This document shows, piece after piece, positions 3,005 through 22,519 of a DNA stretch of 24,001 nt. Origin of the DNA: a virus. The notes below the pieces were generated by a model. That model did not search any database and was not told the origin of the DNA. It was given only the letters and a program-made list of their open reading frames with translations. Numbering within the stretch: the stretch's first letter is position 1; each line of letters starts with the position of its first letter. The stretch spans positions 1 through 24,001 of IMG/VR virus record IMGVR_UViG_3300027770_000252; one strand, 5' to 3'. The position numbers and the translations under genes are program-made.

Positions 3005-4063
3005 ATGGCTACCGCATATAACAACTCTGGTTTTGTTTACAACGCCACTAACCTCACATACAATGGAACTGCTCTATTCAGCGTAACTGCCACTAGTTCT
3101 GGCGCAGGTGTAAGCACTGCAATAGGACTTCATATTGCTCCACGTACCGCCACAGGTAGTGGTGTTGGGTCATCTTCTATTGTTTGTCTTGTTACACGGC
3201 TTCGTAGTGCGTCTGGTAGCGGGTTAGGGTCGGATACTGCTGCACGGATTGTTGTTTGTATTCGTGCTGCTACAGGTTCGGGTTCTAGTACATCCACAAC
3301 TGTTCATGTTGTCACAAAACTTTGTGCAGCCACAGGTTCGGGTACGGGTACTTCATCTGCTACGGGACTCCATATTGCCCCACGTACTGCCACAGGGTCA
3401 GGCTTGGGAACCAGCACAAACGTTCGACTCGTCAGCCGTGTACGCACCGCCACAGGGTCAGGTATAGGAACCTCGGCTACGACACGCCTAATCACAGTCA
3501 TCCGTACAGGCATAGCATCAGCAGGCACAGGTTCATCTTCTGTAACAAGAGTCATAACCAAACTTAAAACAGGAACAGGAACAGGACAAGGAACTGCTAG
3601 TAGCATCACACTCCATGTTGTTATTAGAACTAGTACAGGCGCAGGCGCAGGCACTTCATCAGGTGTCGCATACATCACGCGCTTCCGTACAGCGTCGGGT
3701 TCGGGAACGGGAACGCAAACATCTACAAGTTCGCGGGGACTACTTAGAACTTGCACAGGTTCAGGTTTAGGTAACTCAACAGTCACCTGGGATAAATCAC
3801 ACATCTTCCGTGTCCCATACAACTACCAATACGTCGGCGGATACTTCAATGATCACGACGGAGCCAACCGATTAGGTTCCTACATCAAAACCAATGTTCG
3901 AGCAAGAAACCTATACAAACTTACAGACGGCAGTTACACCATTGTTGACCAACGGGATCTGGGACAAGTCAAAAAAGTTTGGTATGGTGGGCGTGACCAC
4001 TTCTTAACACCAGCAGAACAAGCAGAACTCACAGCAGACGGATTCGGAGCAAGTATTACCTGA
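3005..4063 (+). CDS. Repeat fibre protein with 20-residue repeats and C-terminal YGG module
   Basis: A 352-residue protein in three parts. Residues 1-27 form an N-terminal cap. Residues 28-248 are eleven tandem units of 20 residues (one of 21), each starting T-A-T-G-S-G-x-G-T-S and ending in a hydrophobic strand closed by Arg or Lys. A partial unit follows to about 262. Residues 265-352 form a non-repetitive tail with NRL, N303-L-Y-K-L-T-D, V-K-K-V-W-Y-G-G and L-T-P-A-E. The regular Gly/Ser turn plus strand suggests a beta-solenoid or a fibrous shaft. I do not recognise a named family. The tail module recurs in the next gene. Thus a receptor-binding fibre is the best guess. Codon choice drifts from T-ending in the first units to A/C-ending in the later ones. 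The start ATG follows TAGGTAGCAG. Confidence 0.72.
   Translation: MATAYNNSGFVYNATNLTYNGTALFSVTATSSGAGVSTAIGLHIAPRTATGSGVGSSSIVCLVTRLRSASGSGLGSDTAARIVVCIRAATGSGSSTSTTVHVVTKLCAATGSGTGTSSATGLHIAPRTATGSGLGTSTNVRLVSRVRTATGSGIGTSATTRLITVIRTGIASAGTGSSSVTRVITKLKTGTGTGQGTASSITLHVVIRTSTGAGAGTSSGVAYITRFRTASGSGTGTQTSTSSRGLLRTCTGSGLGNSTVTWDKSHIFRVPYNYQYVGGYFNDHDGANRLGSYIKTNVRARNLYKLTDGSYTIVDQRDLGQVKKVWYGGRDHFLTPAEQAELTADGFGASIT
3086..3748 (+). repeat. Eleven coding 60-bp tandem repeats
   Basis: Each unit encodes 20 residues; unit 8 encodes 21. Units are conserved as protein but diverged as DNA. Some pairs stay close: the stretches near 3128-3165 and 3364-3410 both encode GLHIAPRTATGSG with only a few third-base changes. 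This suggests old duplication with later synonymous drift, plus more recent copying between some units. Confidence 0.85.
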
Positions 4064-4359: not shown

Positions 4360-4640
4360 TCAAACATCAAGAGACACATCCAAACTTGGATGTCGAGGGT
4401 TGTTTTGGATGCAAAGTTTCAGCAGTCGGATTCAGTGCAGAACTTATGCCCACCCGTACAGGTTCTTCACGGTCGGCAACCATCGCACAAAAGGATCGTG
4501 TGCTAGAAAAGGATCTAGACGCATACAAACGATTACGTGACGACGGTATCCAACCAAGAAAAATTGATGGTGCTGCAAACGTGGAAGCGAGAGCAACAGA
4601 AAAATGGCAGGCAGAATCAGGAATACTTCCCGACTTTTAA
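4356..4640 (+). CDS. Small conserved phage protein with His/Cys cluster
   Basis: A 94-residue protein starting with GTG at 4356, overlapping the previous stop by four bases. The N-terminus carries HQETHPNLDVEGCFGCK, where His3, His7, Cys16 and Cys19 could form a zinc site. The middle has MPTRTGSSRSATIAQKDRVLEKDLDAYKRLRDDGIQPRKIDGA, a helical basic segment, then a variable acidic tail. I have seen the 'HPNLDVEGCF.CK' start and the 'DAYKRLR.DG.QP..IDG' centre in several actinophage proteins of unknown function, which makes the gene real but unexplained. Its last 37 bases overlap the glycosyltransferase start in another frame. DNA-binding or a regulatory zinc-knuckle role is possible. Confidence 0.68.
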   Translation: MIKHQETHPNLDVEGCFGCKVSAVGFSAELMPTRTGSSRSATIAQKDRVLEKDLDAYKRLRDDGIQPRKIDGAANVEARATEKWQAESGILPDF

Positions 4641-5728
4641 GTGTTGAAGGTGTCAACATCCCGCATATCGGTTACGGGAAAATGGTTCAAGGGTTAAAGA
4701 CAGCGTTATCGGAAAAGGTAACACTCGATGACCGTGCCGAAACCGTAATGTTTGCGTTACGACCAAACCTTATTTCAGGCTGGTTTGATGACCAACGGGT
4801 ATCGGTGCTAACCATGTGGGAAACAAACTGGCTACCCCCACAGTTCCACGAATACATCCCACTAATCGAAACAGTGATTGTGCCATCCATGCACAACTAT
4901 GATCTGTTCTCCCAGTTCCACAACAACGTTCACATGATCCCGTTAGGTGTTGACCGTGACATGTGGTGTCCATCAGACGATAAACCTGAAGGCAAGTTCC
5001 GGATTATGTGCGGTGGCTCAGAGTGGTATCGCAAAGGCTTAGATGTGGTGTTAGAAGTGTTCAACAGATTGCAACTATCTGACGCAGAACTTCACATCAA
5101 AATTGTGCCACCCCATCTATCGGCACCAAAGAACTTGGATTACCCAAACGTAGTATTTCACCGTGAATGGTTAACCGTTGAAGAGGAACGCGATCTAGTG
5201 CGATCCATGGATGGGTTTGTGTCGGTGTCCCGTGGCGAAGGTTTCGGTCTAATGCCATTACAAGCCATCTCAGCTGGCATCCCAACCATCCTGTCCAACG
5301 CTCATGGACATCGAGAGTTCGCCGACCTAGCAACCCATCGCATACCAACCACCAGTGTCCCCACCGCCAAGGGTGTTTGGCAAGACATGGGTGACTGGGA
5401 TGAACCTGACGCAGACGCACTCGCAGAAGCGATCACAGACCTATACAACAAACGTGACAAGTACCGTCGTCAGGCAGTCCTGACAGCCCCACAAACAGCA
5501 GCATTTAACTGGGACACAGCAGCCGATCAAGTGCTACAGATCGTGCAACCAACCAGCAACAGGTCTACTGGTACATGGAAACCGTTTGAACCTATGTGCG
5601 AAATTGAGGTATCCAAACGGGTACAAGCCACCATTGGGCAACATCATGTGGAACTATTACCTGGAGTAAAACATCGTGTAGTCTTAAACGTACGTGACGT
5701 ATTATTCAACGCAGGAGTATTGAAATGA
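4604..5728 (+). CDS. GT4-like glycosyltransferase
   Basis: A 374-residue GT-B-fold enzyme expected to move a sugar from a nucleotide-sugar donor. Residues 10-30 (LLSVEGVNIPHIGYGKM) are the N-terminal acceptor-side start; residues 90-121 include VIVPSMHNYDLF and IPLGVDRDMW, the usual end of the first domain; residues 133-151 (RIMCGGSEWYRKGLDVVLEV) open the donor domain; and 207-227 hold the nucleotide-binding loop, SVSRGEGFGLMPLQAISAG. The EX7E motif is E212 but Q220 at the second glutamate. It sits among virion genes, so candidate acceptors are fibre or capsid proteins, as reported for virion glycosylation in some mycobacteriophages; host surface or DNA are alternatives. It overlaps the previous gene by 37 bases and the next by four. 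Confidence 0.85.
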   Translation: MAGRIRNTSRLLSVEGVNIPHIGYGKMVQGLKTALSEKVTLDDRAETVMFALRPNLISGWFDDQRVSVLTMWETNWLPPQFHEYIPLIETVIVPSMHNYDLFSQFHNNVHMIPLGVDRDMWCPSDDKPEGKFRIMCGGSEWYRKGLDVVLEVFNRLQLSDAELHIKIVPPHLSAPKNLDYPNVVFHREWLTVEEERDLVRSMDGFVSVSRGEGFGLMPLQAISAGIPTILSNAHGHREFADLATHRIPTTSVPTAKGVWQDMGDWDEPDADALAEAITDLYNKRDKYRRQAVLTAPQTAAFNWDTAADQVLQIVQPTSNRSTGTWKPFEPMCEIEVSKRVQATIGQHHVELLPGVKHRVVLNVRDVLFNAGVLK

Positions 5729-8763: not shown

Positions 8764-9909
8764 ATGGCTGCTATAACTAGACGACAATATAAAGGTGCTG
8801 CTGTATCGACAACGATTACGGCTGCCATTAACAATACGGTTACGTCATGTACTTTGGCGGCTACAACAGGTTGGCCTTCATCAGCAAGTGTACCGTTTTT
8901 TGTTGTTATTGACCCAGGTACTTCATCAGAAGAAAAGTGTTCGGCAACTATTGCTGGTTCTACTCTTACTTTAACTCGCGGAAAAGATGATACTTCTGCT
9001 TCTGCTCATGATTCTGGTGCTGTGATTTACCCAGTATTTACGGCAACCGAAGCTGATGAAGCGAACACACTCGCTTCAACGATGACCACCCGTGGTGATT
9101 TGTTGACGATGAGTTCAACACCAACCGTTACCCGTTTGGGAATTGGCACTTCAAGTTATGCTTTGACATCAAATGGGACTGATCCTATATGGGGTCAGAT
9201 TGCTGCTGGTGGTATTGCTTCTGATGCTGTAACTACCGCAAAAATTATTAATAGTGCTGTAACAACAGACAAGATTGCTGATAGTGCTGTAACTTCCGCA
9301 AAAATTGCTGATGCAACGATTGTTCAAGGTGATATTGCATTGACGTTGTTGAAGGCTCTTTGCCCTGTTGGTACCATCAATGCGTACGCTGGTGCTACTG
9401 CCCCTACTGGCTGGATTTTGTGTGATGGTACTGCTGTTGTGTCGGGTACTCATCCTGAACTGTATGCGCTTTGTGCTACTACTCCTGATTTGCGTGGGCG
9501 TTTTGCGCTAGGTAAAGCAGCATCAGGTACAGGTAGTACTTTGTTGGGTACTGGTGGTTCGACAACTATTACTGAAGCAAACTTGCCGATTCACACTCAC
9601 GCAAACACTTTGACCAATAATTCTGTGACTACTAGTAGTACTACTTCTACATCACACTCTCATGGAATTAATGATGGTAATACTTATTGGGGAGAAAATG
9701 GAACTCTTGATTGGAGTCTTGCTAACGGAAGCAGTATCAGTTTCAAAAGATTTAACGAGTTTGACAGAACAAGTGATGCTGCCAGCGTAGACCATAGCCA
9801 CAACATAACCTCCAACGTCACTATTTCAAACGGTGCTATTGGTAGTGGCACTGCCTACAATCAGCCGTTTGTTGCTGTGAGTTACATCATTAAACACGAC
9901 TACGTTTAG
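8764..9909 (+). CDS. Tail fibre protein with phage tail-collar domain (second copy)
   Basis: A 381-residue fibre. Residues 1-110 are an N-terminal beta region with a TLTLTRGKDDTSASAHDSGA segment like that in the 294-residue adaptor-like protein. Residues 153-184 contain about three 10-residue repeats (DAVTTAKIINS, AVTTDKIADS, AVTSAKIADA), a common fibre shaft pattern. Residues 201-250 are the collar domain: VGTINAYAGATAPTGWILCDG, then PDLRGRFALG. The tip region has three His-X-His motifs at 277-279, 298-300 and 344-346 and ends YNQPFVAVSYIIKHDYV. Compared with the first collar gene the shaft differs but the collar and His tip are alike, so they are paralogues and may give two receptor specificities. 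AGGA lies just upstream of the ATG. Confidence 0.87.
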   Translation: MAAITRRQYKGAAVSTTITAAINNTVTSCTLAATTGWPSSASVPFFVVIDPGTSSEEKCSATIAGSTLTLTRGKDDTSASAHDSGAVIYPVFTATEADEANTLASTMTTRGDLLTMSSTPTVTRLGIGTSSYALTSNGTDPIWGQIAAGGIASDAVTTAKIINSAVTTDKIADSAVTSAKIADATIVQGDIALTLLKALCPVGTINAYAGATAPTGWILCDGTAVVSGTHPELYALCATTPDLRGRFALGKAASGTGSTLLGTGGSTTITEANLPIHTHANTLTNNSVTTSSTTSTSHSHGINDGNTYWGENGTLDWSLANGSSISFKRFNEFDRTSDAASVDHSHNITSNVTISNGAIGSGTAYNQPFVAVSYIIKHDYV

Positions 9910-9911
9910 AA

Positions 9912-11267
9912 ATGCGGTCTAGCCGTTGGCTGATTTTTGCTCCTGTAGCAATCTTGGCGTTGTTTGCACCGACCGCTAACGCACAATCACAACCAGGGTT
10001 GCTGACCCGTTACTACACCATTGATGAAGTACCGCCCATAAAGTCCGAACTCATCTATACCGAATGCGGTAGTGAAGTGGAAAACAATATCAACCGTTCC
10101 TATGACGGTGAGCCATATCTTGAATGTACCTATGACCTATTCATGGTTCACATGACTGGGGCAATCGTTATTCCTGAGCATGAGACCATCGAGTTTTGGT
10201 TGGCTTCAGATGACGGTGGCACCATCAAGATAGGCACCCATGAGTGGGGCAATTGGGGAGACCAAGGTTGTACTTGGATGGAGTCAGGACAGATAGACAT
10301 TAGTGCAGGCATCCAGCCGCTTGACTTGTGGATGTACGAAAATGGTGGAAGTACCTGCATACTTCTTGCTTGGAACATTGATAACACAGGTTGGGCTATT
10401 GTTCCTGACGAAGCATTTTTGACGGAGCCATCATGGGAATCTACAACAACATCCACGACTACAACGACGAGCAGTTCTACTTCTGTACCCTCCACGACTG
10501 TGCCTGTGGAAGAAGAATCGACTACTACGACACTTCAAACAACTACTTCTTTGAGTCCCCAAACAACAGAAGCACTAGAAGCATCAACGACAACAACGAC
10601 AGAACTCCCGACACCAACAACGACCCTGCCACCAGTATCCAGTGAAACATCAGACGTACCTCCAGTTGTGGACACAATTCCACCTGTTGTAGACACTACC
10701 GTACCCGACACTACGGTGCCCGACACCCTGCCACCAGACACCCTGCCAGACGCACCAGAAACGCCTGAGACGCTCCCAATAGACATAACCGAGGAAATAC
10801 CAGCCGAACTCGTACAAGCCCTCACAGACGCTATAGATAGCGGTGAACCACTAACCGACGAACAGTTCGCCACAGCCGTAGAAGCACTCGGCGACCTCAA
10901 CGAAGAACAAGCCATAGCCCTCATAGACCAACTCCTTGCCACAGACGTAACAGCCGACCAAGCCACAGAACTCGCCACCAACCCTGATGTGTTGGATGTC
11001 ATCACCTCAGACCAGGCTGAAGAAATTTTTGCCACCATCGAAGTAGACCAACTAGACGACACACAAATAGCCGAACTCACAGCCGCAATCCAAAACGCAC
11101 CTCTTGCCGTACAAGAAGCGTTTGAAGCTACCATAGACATCTTCGGAGGATTTGACGACTACGTGCCAACAGGATCAAATATCCCTGTAAGGGAACGACG
11201 AACCCTTATCGCCATCGCAGCAGGGACAACCCTCACAGCAGCAGGTAGTAAGATAAAACGGAAATGA
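9912..11267 (+). CDS. Secreted PA14-domain protein with Thr/Pro linker and acidic helical domain
   Basis: A 451-residue protein with a signal peptide (MRSSRW, hydrophobic core LIFAPVAILALFAP, cleavage near ANA-Q at 24/25). Residues 28-172 look like a PA14 domain (LLTRYYTIDEVPP, FWLASDDGGTIKIG), which usually binds glycans; SDDG is the calcium-site type, and Cys52, Cys72, Cys120 and Cys149 could form disulfides. Residues 175-290 are a Thr/Ser/Pro stalk with VDT and PDT repeats. Residues 290-410 form acidic helices. The end (about 425-451) has YVPTGSNIPVRERR, a hydrophobic stretch and a basic tail, like a wall or membrane anchor. It lies between tail fibres and the holin. It could display on the host surface or act as an adhesin. 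No ribosome site is obvious. Confidence 0.78.
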   Translation: MRSSRWLIFAPVAILALFAPTANAQSQPGLLTRYYTIDEVPPIKSELIYTECGSEVENNINRSYDGEPYLECTYDLFMVHMTGAIVIPEHETIEFWLASDDGGTIKIGTHEWGNWGDQGCTWMESGQIDISAGIQPLDLWMYENGGSTCILLAWNIDNTGWAIVPDEAFLTEPSWESTTTSTTTTTSSSTSVPSTTVPVEEESTTTTLQTTTSLSPQTTEALEASTTTTTELPTPTTTLPPVSSETSDVPPVVDTIPPVVDTTVPDTTVPDTLPPDTLPDAPETPETLPIDITEEIPAELVQALTDAIDSGEPLTDEQFATAVEALGDLNEEQAIALIDQLLATDVTADQATELATNPDVLDVITSDQAEEIFATIEVDQLDDTQIAELTAAIQNAPLAVQEAFEATIDIFGGFDDYVPTGSNIPVRERRTLIAIAAGTTLTAAGSKIKRK

Positions 11268-11431
11268 AACGCCTCACTGACCTCATCAAAGACAACGCCT
11301 GGACATACGCAGGCACAGGTCTAGTCCTCATCACCCTGTCAGGGCCTACGCTCCGGCAAGCAATCTGGGTGGTTGGTGTATCATTGGTGTTACACGCAGC
11401 ATTAACTCTCAGCACAAAGGAATCAGAATGA
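11264..11431 (+). CDS. Small membrane protein, two segments (lysis cassette)
   Basis: A 55-residue protein (ATG 11264, overlapping the PA14 stop by four bases; TGA 11429-11431 overlapping the next ATG). A basic start MKRLTDLIKDN is followed by two hydrophobic stretches, TYAGTGLVLITLSG (about residues 14-27) and AIWVVGVSLVLHAALTLS (about 33-50), then a short charged tail. Two short membrane segments with a tight turn are typical of class II holins and of antiholins. It is directly before a holin-like gene and the endolysin, so holin, antiholin or pinholin partner are the candidates. No homologue comes to mind. The four-base overlaps on both sides indicate coupled translation. Confidence 0.72.
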   Translation: MKRLTDLIKDNAWTYAGTGLVLITLSGPTLRQAIWVVGVSLVLHAALTLSTKESE

Positions 11432-11664
11432 AGAAAGCACAAGACATCGCAAACCGTATCGTGGCAGTATTTTTGTCTTCGGCATTGGCTATCGTTGGCG
11501 GTAGTGCAATTTTGGCTCCAGAACTAAGTGTGTTTAAAGCAGCGGCTTTAGCCGGCTTTGCCGCCGTTGCCGCCGTAGTGCAGAAACTCGCCTCTGCCTC
11601 ACTTGACGGCAAGTTGACACTGGAAGAAATCAACAGCGCATTCGGCGCAAAACCATCAAAGTAA
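11428..11664 (+). CDS. Holin (r1t-type-like)
   Basis: A 78-residue protein with AAAGGA six bases before the ATG. Two hydrophobic segments, IVAVFLSSALAIVGGSAILA (about residues 11-30) and ALAGFAAVAAVVQKLA (about 40-55), are followed by a soluble tail, DGKLTLEEINSAFGAKPSK. The layout (hydrophobic pair, short polar link, LDG.LT.EEIN. tail) resembles r1t-type holins of actinophages. It would form the membrane lesion that lets the endolysin through. The preceding 55-residue protein may modulate it. The endolysin gene starts five bases downstream. Confidence 0.78.
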   Translation: MKKAQDIANRIVAVFLSSALAIVGGSAILAPELSVFKAAALAGFAAVAAVVQKLASASLDGKLTLEEINSAFGAKPSK

Positions 11665-11668
11665 ACCT

Positions 11669-12196
11669 GTGGCATATCCTGTTGTGCCGGTCAAACTTTG
11701 TGACCACCTAAAGAACGCTGTCCCAGGCAAACTCACTGCTGAACAGTTACGCAAAACCGTTGGTGGCACACTCCACCATTGTGCTGCTGACGCATGGGAA
11801 GCAATGGTAGATGCCGCACAAAAAGACGGAATCAAACTAACTCCCGTCTCAATCGGCGACACATATCGCACACTCGAATCCCAAACCAAAGCGTTCTTTC
11901 AGCGGTACCAACTGGAATCAACAGGCAACCCAGATACACGAACCTTTGAAGGAAAACTTTGGTACCTTAAAAAAGGTCAAGCCTGCCTTGCAACACCAGG
12001 AAAATCGCAGCATAACCTCGGCATCGCCGTTGATGTGGCTACAGCATCAGGCCCACGCCTTGCATGGATGCTCGCCAACGAACACCTTTACGGCTTCTCA
12101 CACGAAGTCCAATCCGAACCGTGGCACATCCGCTACACCCAAGGAAACCAAGTCCCACCTGCGGTTGCAGCGCACCTCGCGGCGAAAGTCGCATGA
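11669..12196 (+). CDS. Endolysin: M15 (VanY-like) D-Ala-D-Ala-type zinc peptidase
   Basis: A 175-residue protein that should cut the peptide part of host peptidoglycan. The zinc site is visible: SQHNLGIAVDV (His115 and Asp122, in the S-x-H-x-x-G-x-A-x-D pattern) and EPWHIRY (Glu150, His153). GDTYRTLESQTKAFFQRY (residues 63-80) is the conserved region upstream. The GTG start at 11669 follows the holin stop by four bases; no strong ribosome site is seen. It is a single-domain enzyme with no separate wall-binding domain, and without a signal peptide, so it needs a holin for export, which fits the preceding genes. A carboxypeptidase versus endopeptidase activity cannot be told from the sequence. 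Confidence 0.9.
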   Translation: MAYPVVPVKLCDHLKNAVPGKLTAEQLRKTVGGTLHHCAADAWEAMVDAAQKDGIKLTPVSIGDTYRTLESQTKAFFQRYQLESTGNPDTRTFEGKLWYLKKGQACLATPGKSQHNLGIAVDVATASGPRLAWMLANEHLYGFSHEVQSEPWHIRYTQGNQVPPAVAAHLAAKVA

Positions 12197-16881: not shown

Positions 16882-17388
16882 ATGCGAAACCTTGTACGGC
16901 TATTTGCCGTTTCTTTGGTAGGGATTATCACCTTCGGCAGCCTTGCTTCAGCAGCCAAAGCCCCATTGGTGACCCCTCAACCTCTTAGCGTGGCTCTCAG
17001 CGCGTCTGAAAGGGCATACGAACTAACCCACCGAATCCCTAAAACAGCCCAATGCCCCCAGTTTTGGAACACAGCCAGAGCAGCTGGATGGGCCGAAGAA
17101 GACCTAATGACATTAGATTTCATTATGAGTCGAGAATCCAAATGCCAACCCAAAGCCCACAACACCACCCTAAACCGCAACGGGTCACAGGACTACGGGC
17201 TGACACAGATTAACGACCGCTCATGGTGCCTGCCAAGTCGCTACCATAAAGCAGGATACTTGCAAGGGTTGGGGATTATAGAATATTGTAAAGATCTACT
17301 AAAGCCATTAGTCAACCTGACTGCGGCAAAGGCTCTTTATGACTACTCAAAAAAAACAGGCAGTGGGTTCAGACCGTGGGGACTATAA
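16882..17388 (+). CDS. Secreted lysozyme/transglycosylase-like protein
   Basis: A 168-residue protein with a signal peptide (MRNLVRLFAVSLVGIITF then GSLASAAKA, cleavage near residue 25-27). The catalytic region is DFIMSRESKC (Glu85) and SQDYGLTQIND (102-112), the pattern of SLT-type lysozymes: an E in a helix, then YGL.QIN. The C-terminus has ALYDYSKKTGSGFRPWG. It would cleave peptidoglycan outside the membrane without a holin. It is not in the lysis cassette but after the recombination genes. Roles could be lysis help, cell-wall entry, or superinfection effects. The start ATG at 16882 follows GGGAG. Confidence 0.82.
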   Translation: MRNLVRLFAVSLVGIITFGSLASAAKAPLVTPQPLSVALSASERAYELTHRIPKTAQCPQFWNTARAAGWAEEDLMTLDFIMSRESKCQPKAHNTTLNRNGSQDYGLTQINDRSWCLPSRYHKAGYLQGLGIIEYCKDLLKPLVNLTAAKALYDYSKKTGSGFRPWGL

Positions 17389-17392
17389 CTAT

Positions 17393-17659
17393 ATGGAACT
17401 GTTTTCAGATTTTGCGTTAATAGACAAAGACATGTCGTGGATGGATGGGGCACTATGCAAAGGCTTGGAATTAGAAGCCTTCTTCCCCGACAACGGCAAC
17501 TGCAGGCAAGCCAAACTGGTGTGCGCTAAGTGCCCTAAAAAGAAACGGTGCTACGACTTCGCTATTACTAATAAAATCATGGAAGGTGTTTGGGGAGGAC
17601 GATCAGCAAATGAACGTAGACAATACTTGCAAAATGTTAGACACCCAGGTAATGTGTAA
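17393..17659 (+). CDS. WhiB-family iron-sulfur transcription regulator
   Basis: An 88-residue protein (ATG 17393 chosen since the upstream in-frame ATG at 17339 would overlap the lysozyme end by 50 bases). Four cysteines in the WhiB arrangement, Cys22, Cys44, Cys47 and Cys53 (C-x2-C-x5-C), would hold a 4Fe-4S cluster; an extra Cys37 is present. GVWGG (65-69) is the typical beta-turn, followed by a basic SANERR helix. WhiB proteins occur only in actinobacteria and their phages. By analogy with the TM4 WhiB protein, which interferes with host WhiB2 and cell division, it may alter host transcription. The ribosome site is weak (GGGGA about ten bases upstream). Confidence 0.93.
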   Translation: MELFSDFALIDKDMSWMDGALCKGLELEAFFPDNGNCRQAKLVCAKCPKKKRCYDFAITNKIMEGVWGGRSANERRQYLQNVRHPGNV

Positions 17660-18384: not shown

Positions 18385-18632
18385 TGAGGAAAAGACGAGA
18401 ACCCCGACGCACATATCTTGCTCAAAATATCGTATCCACATTCCCGTCAGACACACCGTATAGTTCTATTGCCTTATCACTTGGCATAGAGCACTCGACT
18501 GTGTCGTACTGGTGTGCTAAAGATGCATGGATCAACGCTTATCTAGCAGACAGATATGCATGCAAACTAGGTATGCACCCGTCAGAGATATGGACTGATT
18601 GGTTCTCAATCACAGAAGATTGCTTAGTATGA
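18384..18632 (+). CDS. Helix-turn-helix protein
   Basis: An 82-residue protein starting on the last base of the previous stop. The middle, SSIALSLGIEHSTVSYWCAK (about residues 27-46), has the helix-turn-helix look (x-x-A-x-x-L-G-I-x-x-x-T-V-S-Y-W). It is followed by ADRYACKLGMHPSEIWTDW, a tail pattern I know from small actinophage HTH proteins: a DR.A..LG.HP.EIW.DW end. It overlaps the methyltransferase start by four bases and may regulate it or the module beyond. Confidence 0.72.
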   Translation: MRKRREPRRTYLAQNIVSTFPSDTPYSSIALSLGIEHSTVSYWCAKDAWINAYLADRYACKLGMHPSEIWTDWFSITEDCLV

Positions 18633-19840
18633 AAGTCCTCTCACTCTTTTCAGGAGCAGGCGGATTTGATGTTGGATTAGAAGCAGCAGGAATGCAAACA
18701 GTATTCCAATGCGAATACGACAAACATTGTCTAAGCGTCTTAGAGCGTCACTGGCCAGATGTCCCCAGGTGGGGTGATGTGTCCACATTGACTGGTGCAT
18801 ACATACTTAAACACGCACCAGTGATAGATGTTGTTGCATGGGGAAGCCCGTGTCAGGACCTCAGTGTGGCTGGAAAACGAGGGGGCTTAGAAGGAAAGCA
18901 ATCTAACCTGTTTCACGAAGGTATCCGGATCATCAAAGAACTAAGGGAGTTAACTAATGGACAGTATCCAAGAATCTCTATTTGGGAGAACGTCGTCGGA
19001 GCAATTACTTCCAACAACGGAAATGACTTTGGGGTTATCCTCGACGAAATGGCTAAAGCAGGGGCGTTGGTCCAAGAATGGTCAGTGTTGGATGCACAAT
19101 ATTTTGGAGTACCCCAAAGACGGCGTCGAATTTTCGTCCTCACTGCATTCGATTCTGCAATCGCCAACAACTGTCCCAACCCGATACTACCTGTCGCCCA
19201 AAGCATGCGAGGGGATACTTCGGCGCGCAAGCAGAAGGGGGAAAGAACTGCCAGCCCGACTACTAAAAGCACTACAGACAACAGTTCGGAACAACAGCCA
19301 ATTCTTATAGATCGTGCAGCGTTCAATCAGGGGGTAAATGCCCTCTATGAGCCTTACATTTCAGATAACCCAATTGGCCCGTCATTGGTTGCCAGAGGAC
19401 CACACGCAATTGCTGTTGAAGTGTATGTAAAATCTCGTCGGGCGCAATCTGTAACCGATCACGAAACGTGGATAAAAGGGGAAGTCAATCCCACTTTAAA
19501 CTCTTTTGATGTTGGGGAAATTAGGGCAACTACCGCAGTAATAGAACCAATGCTTGCATTTGACAGACAGTTCGGCAGCAATGCCAACGTAACCGAAAAT
19601 GTTTCACCAACCTTAAAGTCATCTCAACAATCACCAAGTGTTGCTTACGGCAGCGAACAAATGGTGATCCGCAGACTAACGCCCTTAGAGTGCGAACGGC
19701 TTATGGGATGGCCAGATGAACACACACGGTGGAGAGCAGACGGAACAGAACAATCAGATACAACTCGATACAAGCAATGTGGTAACGGAGTTGCATCACC
19801 TGTTGCACAGTGGATAGGCAGCAAAATAATTTTGTTGTAG
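18629..19840 (+). CDS. DNA cytosine-5 methyltransferase
   Basis: A 403-residue enzyme with the ordered m5C motifs: I, LFSGAGGFDVGLEAAG (6-21); IV, WGSPCQDLS with the catalytic Cys75; VI, WENV (119-122); VIII, PQRRRRIF (162-169); a target-recognition region from about 180 to 350; IX, RRLTPLECERLMGWPD; X, CGNGVASPVAQWIG. Start chosen at ATG 18629, overlapping the HTH stop. It transfers a methyl from S-adenosylmethionine to C5 of cytosine in a specific site, for protection against restriction or for marking phage DNA. No partner restriction enzyme is seen in the window, so it looks orphan. It is the last gene before the composition change. Recognition site cannot be read from the protein. Confidence 0.95.
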   Translation: MKVLSLFSGAGGFDVGLEAAGMQTVFQCEYDKHCLSVLERHWPDVPRWGDVSTLTGAYILKHAPVIDVVAWGSPCQDLSVAGKRGGLEGKQSNLFHEGIRIIKELRELTNGQYPRISIWENVVGAITSNNGNDFGVILDEMAKAGALVQEWSVLDAQYFGVPQRRRRIFVLTAFDSAIANNCPNPILPVAQSMRGDTSARKQKGERTASPTTKSTTDNSSEQQPILIDRAAFNQGVNALYEPYISDNPIGPSLVARGPHAIAVEVYVKSRRAQSVTDHETWIKGEVNPTLNSFDVGEIRATTAVIEPMLAFDRQFGSNANVTENVSPTLKSSQQSPSVAYGSEQMVIRRLTPLECERLMGWPDEHTRWRADGTEQSDTTRYKQCGNGVASPVAQWIGSKIILL

Positions 19841-20348: not shown

Positions 20349-21077
20349 ATGGACACAAACGAAAACCCGATCACGCTCCCCGCGTGTTGGCAATCAGTAG
20401 ATGACACTCTACGAGCGAACCTAAATCGCGTACTGATGTACGGTGGCGCAGGTATCGGCAAAACATACACAGCACAGACAAGCCACCTCACAAGCGCAGG
20501 CGTTTTTAAGATCGGTTGCGTAGAGGATATGACCACCGCACAGATAGAAGGTATGTGGAAACCGTCGCGCGAAGGTTGGGAGTTTCACGAAGGTAGCGCG
20601 GTGAAAGCATGGAGAACTGGCGGGCGTTTGCTCATAGATGAAATTGACAAGGCAAGCGGAGAAGTGTTGGGCTCGCTCTTACAATTCTGCGACAGCGAAG
20701 CCAGCGCACAATGGCAACACCCCGACACAGGTGAGACGATCAAACCCGCGCAAGGTTTCACGATCGTTGCCACAACGAACAGCCACCCAAACGCGCTCGC
20801 CGAAGCGTTGCGCGATCGTTTCCCCGTGTGCATAGAAATAAACGAAGCACACCCGAGCGCAATCGCACTACTACCAGCATGGCTACAAGAACCAGCGCGC
20901 CAGTTATGCCGATCAACAGACGATGACCGCCTATCGTTGCGCGCGTTCGGTGCTATCGCACACCTCGCCGAAACTCTCGGCGTGACTCGCGCGGTGGAAT
21001 TGGTAGCACCAATGCACACCGAGACGCTCACAATGGCTCACGCGGTAAGCGCACTTGCAGAGAGCGAGGCGAAATAA
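20349..21077 (+). CDS. MoxR/CobS-like AAA+ ATPase
   Basis: A 242-residue ATPase. Walker A GGAGIGKT (32-39), Walker B LLIDEID (94-100), sensor ATTN (141-144) and an arginine finger region ALRDRF (153-158). 'HEGSAVKAW..GG' before Walker B (about 80-93) and the order of motifs match MoxR/CbbQ/CobS-type proteins, which act as hexameric motors with a VWA partner on client proteins or metal insertion. Its partner is the next gene, starting on the last base of its stop. The ATG has AGGAGA eight bases upstream. Base composition is much more G+C- and CGCG-rich than the upstream genes. Cobalamin function is not implied: phage CobS-like proteins are of unknown role. Confidence 0.9.
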   Translation: MDTNENPITLPACWQSVDDTLRANLNRVLMYGGAGIGKTYTAQTSHLTSAGVFKIGCVEDMTTAQIEGMWKPSREGWEFHEGSAVKAWRTGGRLLIDEIDKASGEVLGSLLQFCDSEASAQWQHPDTGETIKPAQGFTIVATTNSHPNALAEALRDRFPVCIEINEAHPSAIALLPAWLQEPARQLCRSTDDDRLSLRAFGAIAHLAETLGVTRAVELVAPMHTETLTMAHAVSALAESEAK

Positions 21078-22519
21078 TGGAAAGCACCACGCCACAAAAG
21101 GCGCGCCCCGAATACCTAGCACCGCGCAAGGATGAGAACCCGAGCGCGTGGACGGTAGGCGCGGGCGTTCCGCTCATCGCGTCCGTGTTCGCTAACGCGA
21201 AACTCGGGCAACTCATAGCACCGACAGAGCCAACACCCCTCGGGCGTTTGTTGCGTACCTATGCACTTGTTCAGGCGCGTTACGATACAAACCAGCCCGA
21301 GCAAGTGTGCGCGCAGTTTCGTTGCAAAAGCGCCGATCTCGAAATTGCTCGCGTTTGGTGGGCTCAACATCTCACCAACAAAGCACTAGGGCTCACGCGC
21401 GAAGCATGGCTAGACGGAACAGGCACAGCGATTGCCGAGCAGATCGGATTAGTTCCGATTGAGCAAGCGATCTCGGGCGCGTTACCGCACCTAATGACAC
21501 AACAAGCGCGCGCGATACTCCGCAAGATCGGAGAGACAAGCAAAGAAGGCGTGAAAGTGTTACAGGAGTTGCGAGACAATGCCAGCGACTATATGGCTTC
21601 ATATATGGGCTACCCAAACACCGAGCAAAGAGATTACGAGGCTGACGGTACGGCGTTATTCCGCATGGATGAGCAACGCCTCGCAAAACTGGCGAACATC
21701 ATCACGGAAGCGCGCCACGAATACGAGCGAGCAACGGACAAACACCGAGAAGGCAAAGGCGAGGACGGAGACCAGCAAGAAGGCTCGGAAACTCCGAACC
21801 AATTCGGCGGAAAACTCGCGCCACAATTCGGCGAGGGCTCGGCGTGGTATCCAATCAACCTCGGGCGCGTCAATCTCACCCGCAAGCATGAAGGCAAAAT
21901 CGGAGTGAAACGCACCGCCAGCGATAGCGGGCGCACAATTCGTTACCCCTCGCGCGCACTCACCGACCCCGCGCGCCGAGTGTTCGGCACAAAAGCCCGC
22001 AACCGCAATGCACTAATCGTCTTAGACATGAGCGGAAGCATGGACTACAGCGAGGACGAACTAGACGAGATAATAGAATTCGCTCGCGGTGCTGTAGTTG
22101 TTGGGTACTCGGGAGACGGAGAGAGCCAGCCAAATTGTTATGTATTGGCGAAGGACGGACACCGCGTAGAGGACTTGCCCGACATGGACGGAAGCAACGG
22201 TTGCGATGGCTCGGCGTTCCAATTCGCGGTGGACAAATACCGCAAAAGCGGAGTCACCCCCGTAATTTGGGTAAGTGACGGAGACATATCAGGCACAGCC
22301 AACTACTCCACGCAATCACTCGCGCGCGACATGATAGACAAACTCCGCGCCAATCGCGGAACGCATTGTCTCACCTCGCGCGAAGCGATCGGGCTCATGG
22401 AGAAAATGGCGCTAGGTCACAAAATCCAGCCACAAATCCACGCCCGCCTATATCAACTCGCGCGCGTAGCAACACCAGCGCACGCGATAGAAGCAACGAG
22501 GCGCGCAAATGCCAACTAA
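21077..22519 (+). CDS. VWA-domain protein, CobT-like partner of the AAA+ ATPase
   Basis: A 480-residue protein. Residues 1-220 are helical; 220-260 are a Gly/Glu/Gln linker; and 310-470 hold a von Willebrand A domain with the MIDAS pattern: LIVLDMSGSMD (Asp317, Ser319, Ser321), a central NGCDGSA loop (375-380), and IWVSDGDISG (Asp401, Asp403). CobT and other MoxR partners share this plan, a long helical N-terminus and a C-terminal VWA. It probably binds the client and gives it to the ATPase. The start overlaps the ATPase stop by one base, implying stoichiometric expression. The client is unknown. Confidence 0.88.
   Translation: MESTTPQKARPEYLAPRKDENPSAWTVGAGVPLIASVFANAKLGQLIAPTEPTPLGRLLRTYALVQARYDTNQPEQVCAQFRCKSADLEIARVWWAQHLTNKALGLTREAWLDGTGTAIAEQIGLVPIEQAISGALPHLMTQQARAILRKIGETSKEGVKVLQELRDNASDYMASYMGYPNTEQRDYEADGTALFRMDEQRLAKLANIITEARHEYERATDKHREGKGEDGDQQEGSETPNQFGGKLAPQFGEGSAWYPINLGRVNLTRKHEGKIGVKRTASDSGRTIRYPSRALTDPARRVFGTKARNRNALIVLDMSGSMDYSEDELDEIIEFARGAVVVGYSGDGESQPNCYVLAKDGHRVEDLPDMDGSNGCDGSAFQFAVDKYRKSGVTPVIWVSDGDISGTANYSTQSLARDMIDKLRANRGTHCLTSREAIGLMEKMALGHKIQPQIHARLYQLARVATPAHAIEATRRANAN

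Follow-up and report, generated by a model that had tools for sequence, protein, structure and literature searches.

A few model phages are known to give the infected cell a new coat by proteins of their own, most of them small; T5, for example, encodes Llp, a surface lipoprotein that acts in superinfection exclusion. Ltp of phage TP-J34 is likewise a superinfection-exclusion lipoprotein at the cell surface, as described in the available portion of its report (PMC3952083). Here we describe a protein encoded in a window of 24,001 nucleotides (the whole stretch of DNA analysed), whose record IMG/VR classes as virus, and which, being phage-encoded, would resemble Ltp and Llp in being exposed at the outer surface of its host. 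It differs from them, as far as that portion of the Ltp report reaches, in having no lipobox (by eye), in lying among tail-fibre and lysis genes rather than in a lysogeny module, and in belonging to a family with exchangeable heads and chromosomal relatives. We propose, tentatively, that this protein and a small membrane partner form a two-gene cassette that displays a lectin on the infected cell and masks receptors against superinfection or re-adsorption; exported, membrane-anchored display taken alone is, on the predicted topology, quite probable. The single elements of the proposal have precedents in PA14 lectins and in phage surface proteins that act in exclusion. The protein is not a one-phage oddity but belongs to a large, modular head-stalk-anchor family of phage proteins with a constant membrane partner, in which heads swap and the anchor stays. 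Among the papers listed by searches of an open-access library (subscription papers and most preprints lying outside it) none describes the surface-protein family, and the available portions of two further papers lack the terms PA14 (PMC6802176) and surface protein (PMC12143481). PADLOC, a collection that addresses defence at large and may lack exclusion proteins, holds no model matching the surface protein or its partner at E <= 0.1.

The sequence of the window suggests a podovirus-like actinophage, since it encodes a major head protein (phrog_1357), collar fibres, a relative of podophage gp80 and a WhiB-family regulator (17339-17659, E 8.5e-17), the last of which fits an actinobacterial host. 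On the plus strand, a collar-domain tail fibre (8764..9909) stops 2 bases before the ATG of the surface protein, a 451-residue product of the ORF 9912-11267 (9912..11267 includes the stop). Two successive ATGA overlaps then join the surface-protein gene to that of the partner, a 55-residue two-helix membrane protein with an LSG motif (11264..11431, +), and the partner gene to a holin-like gene (11428..11664, +), which is followed by a VanY/M15-type peptidase, the probable endolysin (11669..12196, +; PF02557, E 3.8e-16). This order agrees with the initial annotation, which had placed the gene between fibres and holin. The holin matches are weak (r1t holin at E 0.051, below the cut-off, and the holin family phrog_443 at E 0.0038). 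The best PHROG of the holin-like protein is phrog_26427, labelled nuclease; that label may be wrong, as size and the weak matches suggest a holin.

The surface protein is not a chance reading frame, as relatives are encoded in 242/250 candidate IMG/VR stretches and the PA14 domain has a dN/dS of 0.10-0.22 in 7/8 pairs (L005 not being computable), which indicates purifying selection. Searches of PHROGs, NCBIfam and PADLOC returned no match to it, and Pfam gave a sub-threshold PA14 and a weak DUF58. Its N-terminus carries a Sec-type signal peptide (residues 1-26, 9912..9989; MRSSRWLIFAPVAILALFAPTANA-Q), assigned together with its cleavage site by eye and supported by a best 15-residue Kyte-Doolittle mean of 2.23. 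There follow a PA14-fold head (residues 27-173, 9990..10430), a Thr/Ser/Pro-rich stalk (residues 174-297, 10431..10802), an acidic helical domain that is common to the chromosomal proteins discussed below (residues 298-416, 10803..11159) and a tail (residues 417-451, 11160..11264), all on the plus strand. AlphaFold confidence is high for most of the head and helical domain, where eight helices are predicted at 298-407 with a pLDDT of about 90, and low over the stalk (about 174-297), which is mostly predicted to be disordered and without structure. Signal peptide, four-cysteine PA14 domain, Thr/Pro stalk and acidic helices had all been read from the letters beforehand, and each is recovered here, the PA14 domain as a modelled fold with a Z of 18.1. 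Wherever the N-terminus of an aligned phage member is complete, it opens with a secretion signal (by eye); it is conserved in the 22 aligned PA14 rows and kept at 74-83% identity to the window in 11 relatives that bear another head. For the fold of the helical domain, whole-protein structure searches were filled by PA14 matches, and a Foldseek search with the fused C-terminal model of a relative, L100 (mean pLDDT 63.5, with block values of 49-62 over the partner part), gave no match at E <= 0.001 (best 0.22).

Pfam PA14 (PF07691) falls below its cut-off of 24 bits on the window protein (E 0.0017, 18.6 bits; 20.7 bits in a one-genome search), and it is the AlphaFold model that clearly shows a PA14 fold, with a VIA-align Z of 18.1 to the anti-sigma-type PA14 6qdi over 137 residues at an rmsd of 2.0. 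Further matches are to 6qe7 (RsgI3, Z 17.7), to the sugar-binding PA14 of Marinomonas MpAFP (about 15.5) and to the yeast Epa and Flo adhesins (12-13), such that two RsgI-type PA14 domains head the order of solved folds, mostly sugar-binding adhesins come next, and glycosidases and protective antigen lie lower. The head cysteines at 52, 72, 120 and 149 are all kept in aligned PA14-headed rows, while aligned rows with the second head class have four cysteines at other positions. Within an SDDGG motif at 99-103, D100, D101, G102 and G103 are invariant in 22/22 aligned PA14 rows, and this Asp-Asp-Gly-Gly stretch aligns with the DDG of RsgI-type PA14; in PA14 domains the adjacent Asp-Asp belongs to a calcium- and sugar-binding site, and the head is predicted to bind sugar. 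The likeness to the bacterial PA14 domains of the MpAFP adhesin and the RsgI3 type thus extends over the whole head fold (Z 15-18) and the DDG motif, whereas the window head is 15-22% identical to them, scores below the Pfam cut-off and is borne by an anchor that the phage itself encodes together with a partner.

In yeast, flocculins and Epa adhesins carry a lectin head on a Ser/Thr-rich stalk with C-terminal GPI anchoring. The window protein shares their head fold (Z 12-13), likeness in stalk and anchor being analogy only, and has a bacterial tail and two-helix partner in place of the eukaryotic GPI anchor. The presence of yeast flocculins, Epa adhesins and PA14 domains of bacterial adhesins among the near solved folds, together with the long stalk, would suit an adhesin acting in trans, one that makes the infected cell sticky for fresh hosts, particles or grazers so that progeny meet new hosts more often. 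In sparse plankton, however, clumping would presumably gain a lysing cell little, and we consider such a role improbable.

The tail of the window protein, YVPTGSNIPVRERR followed by TLIAIAAGTTLTAAG and SKIKRK, consists of a YVPxGS motif, an invariant RR, a short hydrophobic run and a basic end. Among the loci listed, the distance from the Y of YVPxGS to the C-terminus is 33-37 residues in 115/133. C-terminal sorting signals of the LPXTG type are built of a motif, a hydrophobic run and a basic end, and this order is common to the window tail and to LPXTG and other such signals. The window tail departs from them in its extra invariant RR and in the lack of any NCBIfam match at E <= 0.1, and fused relatives carry the tail internally. 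A sortase-substrate reading was dropped, the motif being YVPxGS and no NCBIfam model matching. The hydrophobic run, about 15 residues with a mean hydropathy of 1.47, has neither the length nor the strength usual in a single membrane-spanning helix, which speaks against display if the tail is taken by itself. The anchor-like end of the initial annotation holds as to hydrophobic run and basic end, but with no NCBIfam match a stand-alone anchor is improbable: the tail probably does not act alone in the manner of LPXTG and would work with the co-encoded two-helix partner. By predicted topology, tail and partner may be regarded as one membrane anchor, which small phages would encode as two separate genes.

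The constancy of the partner can be judged from 162 phage loci, the window included, taken from the best 80 of 242 relatives and from 80 of at least 120 pattern matches. The surface-protein gene was read to its stop in 148/162, and 133 of these differ by ORF sequence. Among the loci listed, the partner is present in 126/126 with enough 3' flank, as the next gene in 118 and as a C-terminal fusion in 8 (7/133 distinct loci being too short 3' for the check, and L104 and L123, counted among the 126, being truncated repeats of L027 and L066). As a control, the search was moved to six other positions, where it gave 0-5 hits of 96-120. Its start overlaps the surface-protein stop as in the window in 52/118. 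In the chromosomal loci that were read the partner is fused in 10/15 and adjacent in 5/15, which indicates that it belongs to the surface protein, and an alignment of seven phage and five chromosomal fusions runs through helical domain and tail into the LSG part. The window partner matches phrog_29041 over its full length (E 2.9e-37); PHROGs gives that entry no function label, and its tie to the surface protein described here gives it a function to look for.

The closeness of the pair to the lysis genes brings in the main rival to receptor masking, namely that surface protein and partner are a lysis accessory, for example a pair that spans the envelope or regulates the holin, in which the head binds a wall polymer and positions or times lysis. 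Gene order lends this some weight, as the genes of surface protein, partner and holin-like protein are chained by two ATGA overlaps; the partner also looks holin-like in size. Furthermore, the tail motif lies within 1.2 kb upstream of the VanY-related peptidase in 61/62 loci, namely those of the best 80 VanY-related loci whose upstream DNA reaches at least 1 kb; they partly share contigs with the earlier loci, so that the counts are not independent. In the same 62 loci the partner shows LSG in 58 (by a loose pattern, without control) and LTG by eye in 4. The lone exception, L324, encodes within 1.2 kb upstream of position 5001 a surface protein shrunken to 84 residues (by eye), consisting of a signal, a stretch of about 30 residues that includes two cysteines, and a tail-like end, NPPGSRIPEEQRKTLNAVVLL; the partner comes next. 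Approached from the other side, among loci chosen by the tail motif only, with the window counted, a related holin-like gene lies within 4 kb downstream in 39/57 and a related peptidase in 28/57. In phage DSL-LC01, however, hypothetical genes come behind the fused gene and then a nucleotide reductase, and the 12 kb seen there contain no annotated lysis gene. The available portion of the DSL-LC01 paper names other genes, a D-Ala-D-Ala carboxypeptidase among them, and contains neither the word PA14 nor the word collagen (PMC10611076). Weighing these points with the head swapping and chromosomal copies below, we think a lysis role unlikely. Genes that by eye appear terminase-like (L115) or peptidase-like (L108 and L110) lie behind the module in three further loci, and Pfam was negative on their first 150 residues, so that they carry no weight in the argument. 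A lysozyme- or transglycosylase-like gene with a signal-like start (16882-17388; SLT_3, E 5e-8) lies about 5 kb from the lysis string of the window.

The heads are the variable part of the family. In 100/133 of the loci listed the head could be delimited with a length of at least 70 residues, and these heads fall into six classes of 60, 20, 16, 2, 1 and 1 (the 60 being PA14), linked by BLAST at E 1e-4, so that classes may still share distant fold kinship. All six sit on a common stalk, helical domain, tail and partner, and shorter heads of still other sequence were seen beyond them. Pfam matched none of three heads tested (one short head, one of class two and one of class three). Comparison with L042 illustrates the exchange: upstream, the third gene is 88.4% and the second 81.8% identical to the window, and the adjacent fibre 71% and 60% in two parts; within the module the signal is 75%, the stalk 67%, the helical part with tail 83% and the partner 94.5% identical, whereas the heads have no similarity. 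Head similarity is missing in ten more of the 18 relatives compared (L051, L053, L054, L055, L059, L063, L069, L081, L135 and L168); L051, L081, L135 and L168 have little or no similarity upstream, and their match is limited to signal, stalk, C-terminal part and downstream genes. Such wholesale swapping of large heads would be unexpected for a lysis timer.

PA14 heads seem to be exchanged within their class too, as head dS exceeds that of the helical domain (1.36 against 0.27 in L004, 1.51 against 0.51 in L008, 1.56 against 0.59 in L009, 1.47 against 0.55 in L067 and 2.11 against 0.60 in L018, with a smaller excess in L003, 0.65 against 0.35, and L002, 0.22 against 0.16). The stalk has the highest dN/dS of the protein in 7/8 pairs; in L002 the dN/dS of the tail is above 1, from very few changes. 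If heads followed the receptor, head type should track fibre type, and the very weak link observed (partial Mantel r 0.09, p 0.05, 71 loci) counts against masking; covariation of head and fibre was accordingly set aside as support for it. In single relatives head and fibre tip also go separate ways: L005 has a head similar to that of the window and a fibre tip without similarity.

A C-terminal domain to be sought in host genomes had been suggested from the sequence beforehand, and it is indeed found in surface-type chromosomal proteins of actinobacterial MAGs, by name Acidimicrobiia. A scan of 84,980 species genomes with the tail pattern returned 14 stretches, of which 7 are real (L084, L088, L091, L093-L096), each the sole copy in its own genome by profile search (8 genomes). 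Six stretches with short open frames were dropped (L085, L086, L087, L089, L092 and L097), as was L090, a 1,923-residue frame with no profile match in its own genome; a scan of genome contigs with the helical-part pattern gave 263 stretches, none of them confirmed. The seven genomes are labelled Acidimicrobiaceae (1), Microthrixaceae (1; class Acidimicrobiia) and actinobacterium or the like (4). The MAG of L088, labelled Bifidobacterium breve, also carries the module and groups in the family of the Microthrixaceae MAG, and its label looks wrong. Wider searches found the module in 13/150 genomes of the G003 family, 2/37 of the G007 family, 4/296 of the class, 2/396 of the phylum (both already known), and 3/29 and 3/24 of two genera, samples that overlap and in which many genomes were scored for their best candidates only, so that some copies may have been missed. 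The module is thus patchy in hosts and near-constant in this phage group, which fits either the lasting insertion of phage genes into chromosomes or their loss from hosts.

The window C-domain is 35-49% identical to five chromosomal copies. Heads of the chromosomal proteins comprise RCC1 repeats, DUF4082 and DUF285 in the five scanned, others having low-complexity repeats only. Neighbouring genes are cellular, as judged by Pfam in 4 genomes and by eye in 10 more (L093 being left out of the 15): chaperonin, TsaD, IMP dehydrogenase and GMP synthase in G007, flavoenzymes and glyoxalase in G003, cytochrome P450 and MFS in G316, and an ABC transporter in G416. In G327 (L246, 7812-9256) a chromosomal copy is split over two adjacent frames of one orientation. 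Cellular neighbours, chromosomal copies and other heads together argue that the anchor is not a part confined to phage lysis, and it looks like a real cell-surface module. This weighs against the lysis explanation, as a lethal pore or trigger makes little sense for a pair found in chromosomal loci of 15 genomes amid cellular genes; it accounts for gene position, not for chromosomal copies or head swapping.

These relatives bear equally on whether the product might be a fibre-like or decoration protein of the virion. Its gene directly behind a collar-domain fibre would suit that idea, as would the PA14 domains found in other phage proteins, but by-eye signal peptides across aligned members, the constant membrane partner and the chromosomal homologues make a virion component very unlikely. 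The initial annotation had judged the protein closer to a bacterial surface adhesin than to a virion protein, and the chromosomal C-domain copies, the by-eye signals and the mostly adhesin PA14 folds fall in line with that judgement.

In a C-domain tree of 62 phage and 14 chromosomal sequences (94 columns, some long branches, L247 left out because its tail escaped the pattern), the labels phage and chromosome need 5 changes, where shuffled labels need 13 on average; well-supported branches make at least 2 of the 5 unavoidable. This indicates labels that are clustered and not separate, and the count does not discriminate between gain and loss. At several points of the tree chromosomal copies are nested among those of phages, and the group with the fused large-phage copies adjoins fused chromosomal ones. 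A broader and more speculative proposal than masking itself is that of a virus-borne, antigen-like display system: that phages of Acidimicrobiia (the host assigned indirectly) possess a core late gene pair with a conserved membrane anchor, on which unrelated heads are swapped by recombination in the stalk; that this anchor has passed repeatedly between the phages and the chromosomes of their hosts; and that both would thus share one pool of surface heads in deciding which phages bind a cell. YVPxGS...RR with an LSG partner provides a sequence tag that would mark phages of Acidimicrobiia.

Returning to receptor masking, we envisage that the surface protein would leave the cytoplasm by its signal peptide and that its tail would be held at the cytoplasmic membrane with the two-helix partner. 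The helical domain would lie near the wall and the Thr/Pro stalk would carry the PA14 head outwards, such that late in infection the cell becomes coated with a sugar-binding head of the phage's choosing. By occupying or masking surface glycans, the head could keep other phages from adsorbing to the infected cell or its debris, and could likewise keep the phage's own progeny from re-adsorbing to them at lysis. The topology in the membrane, the exposure at the surface, the binding of sugar, the late timing and the benefit are all predicted steps of this sequence, and masking is the most likely use in that it best suits a sugar-binding head that can be exchanged. That the protein could alter host adhesion or block other phages, as the initial annotation suggested, is plausible. 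It sits less well with the coupling of the gene to lysis genes, which is late for a classic exclusion gene, and with L324, which keeps only signal, about 30 residues and tail-like end and is left unexplained by a lectin. The family yields a testable prediction about the competition between uncultured actinobacteria and their phages at the surface of the cell.

Some other genes of the window were noted as well. A family-4 glycosyltransferase (4604-5728; best Pfam GT4-conflict, E 8.1e-12) could modify the surface or the stalk. A 352-residue protein with imperfect TGSGxGTSS-rich repeats and no Pfam family at E <= 0.1 is encoded at 3005-4063. At 20349-22519 lies an AAA_5 ATPase and, behind it, a protein that contains a DMSGSM stretch and has no Pfam match, a pair that by eye resembles MoxR/VWA or CobS/CobT. 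Finally, a C-5 cytosine DNA methylase is encoded at 18599-19840 (E 9.5e-55).
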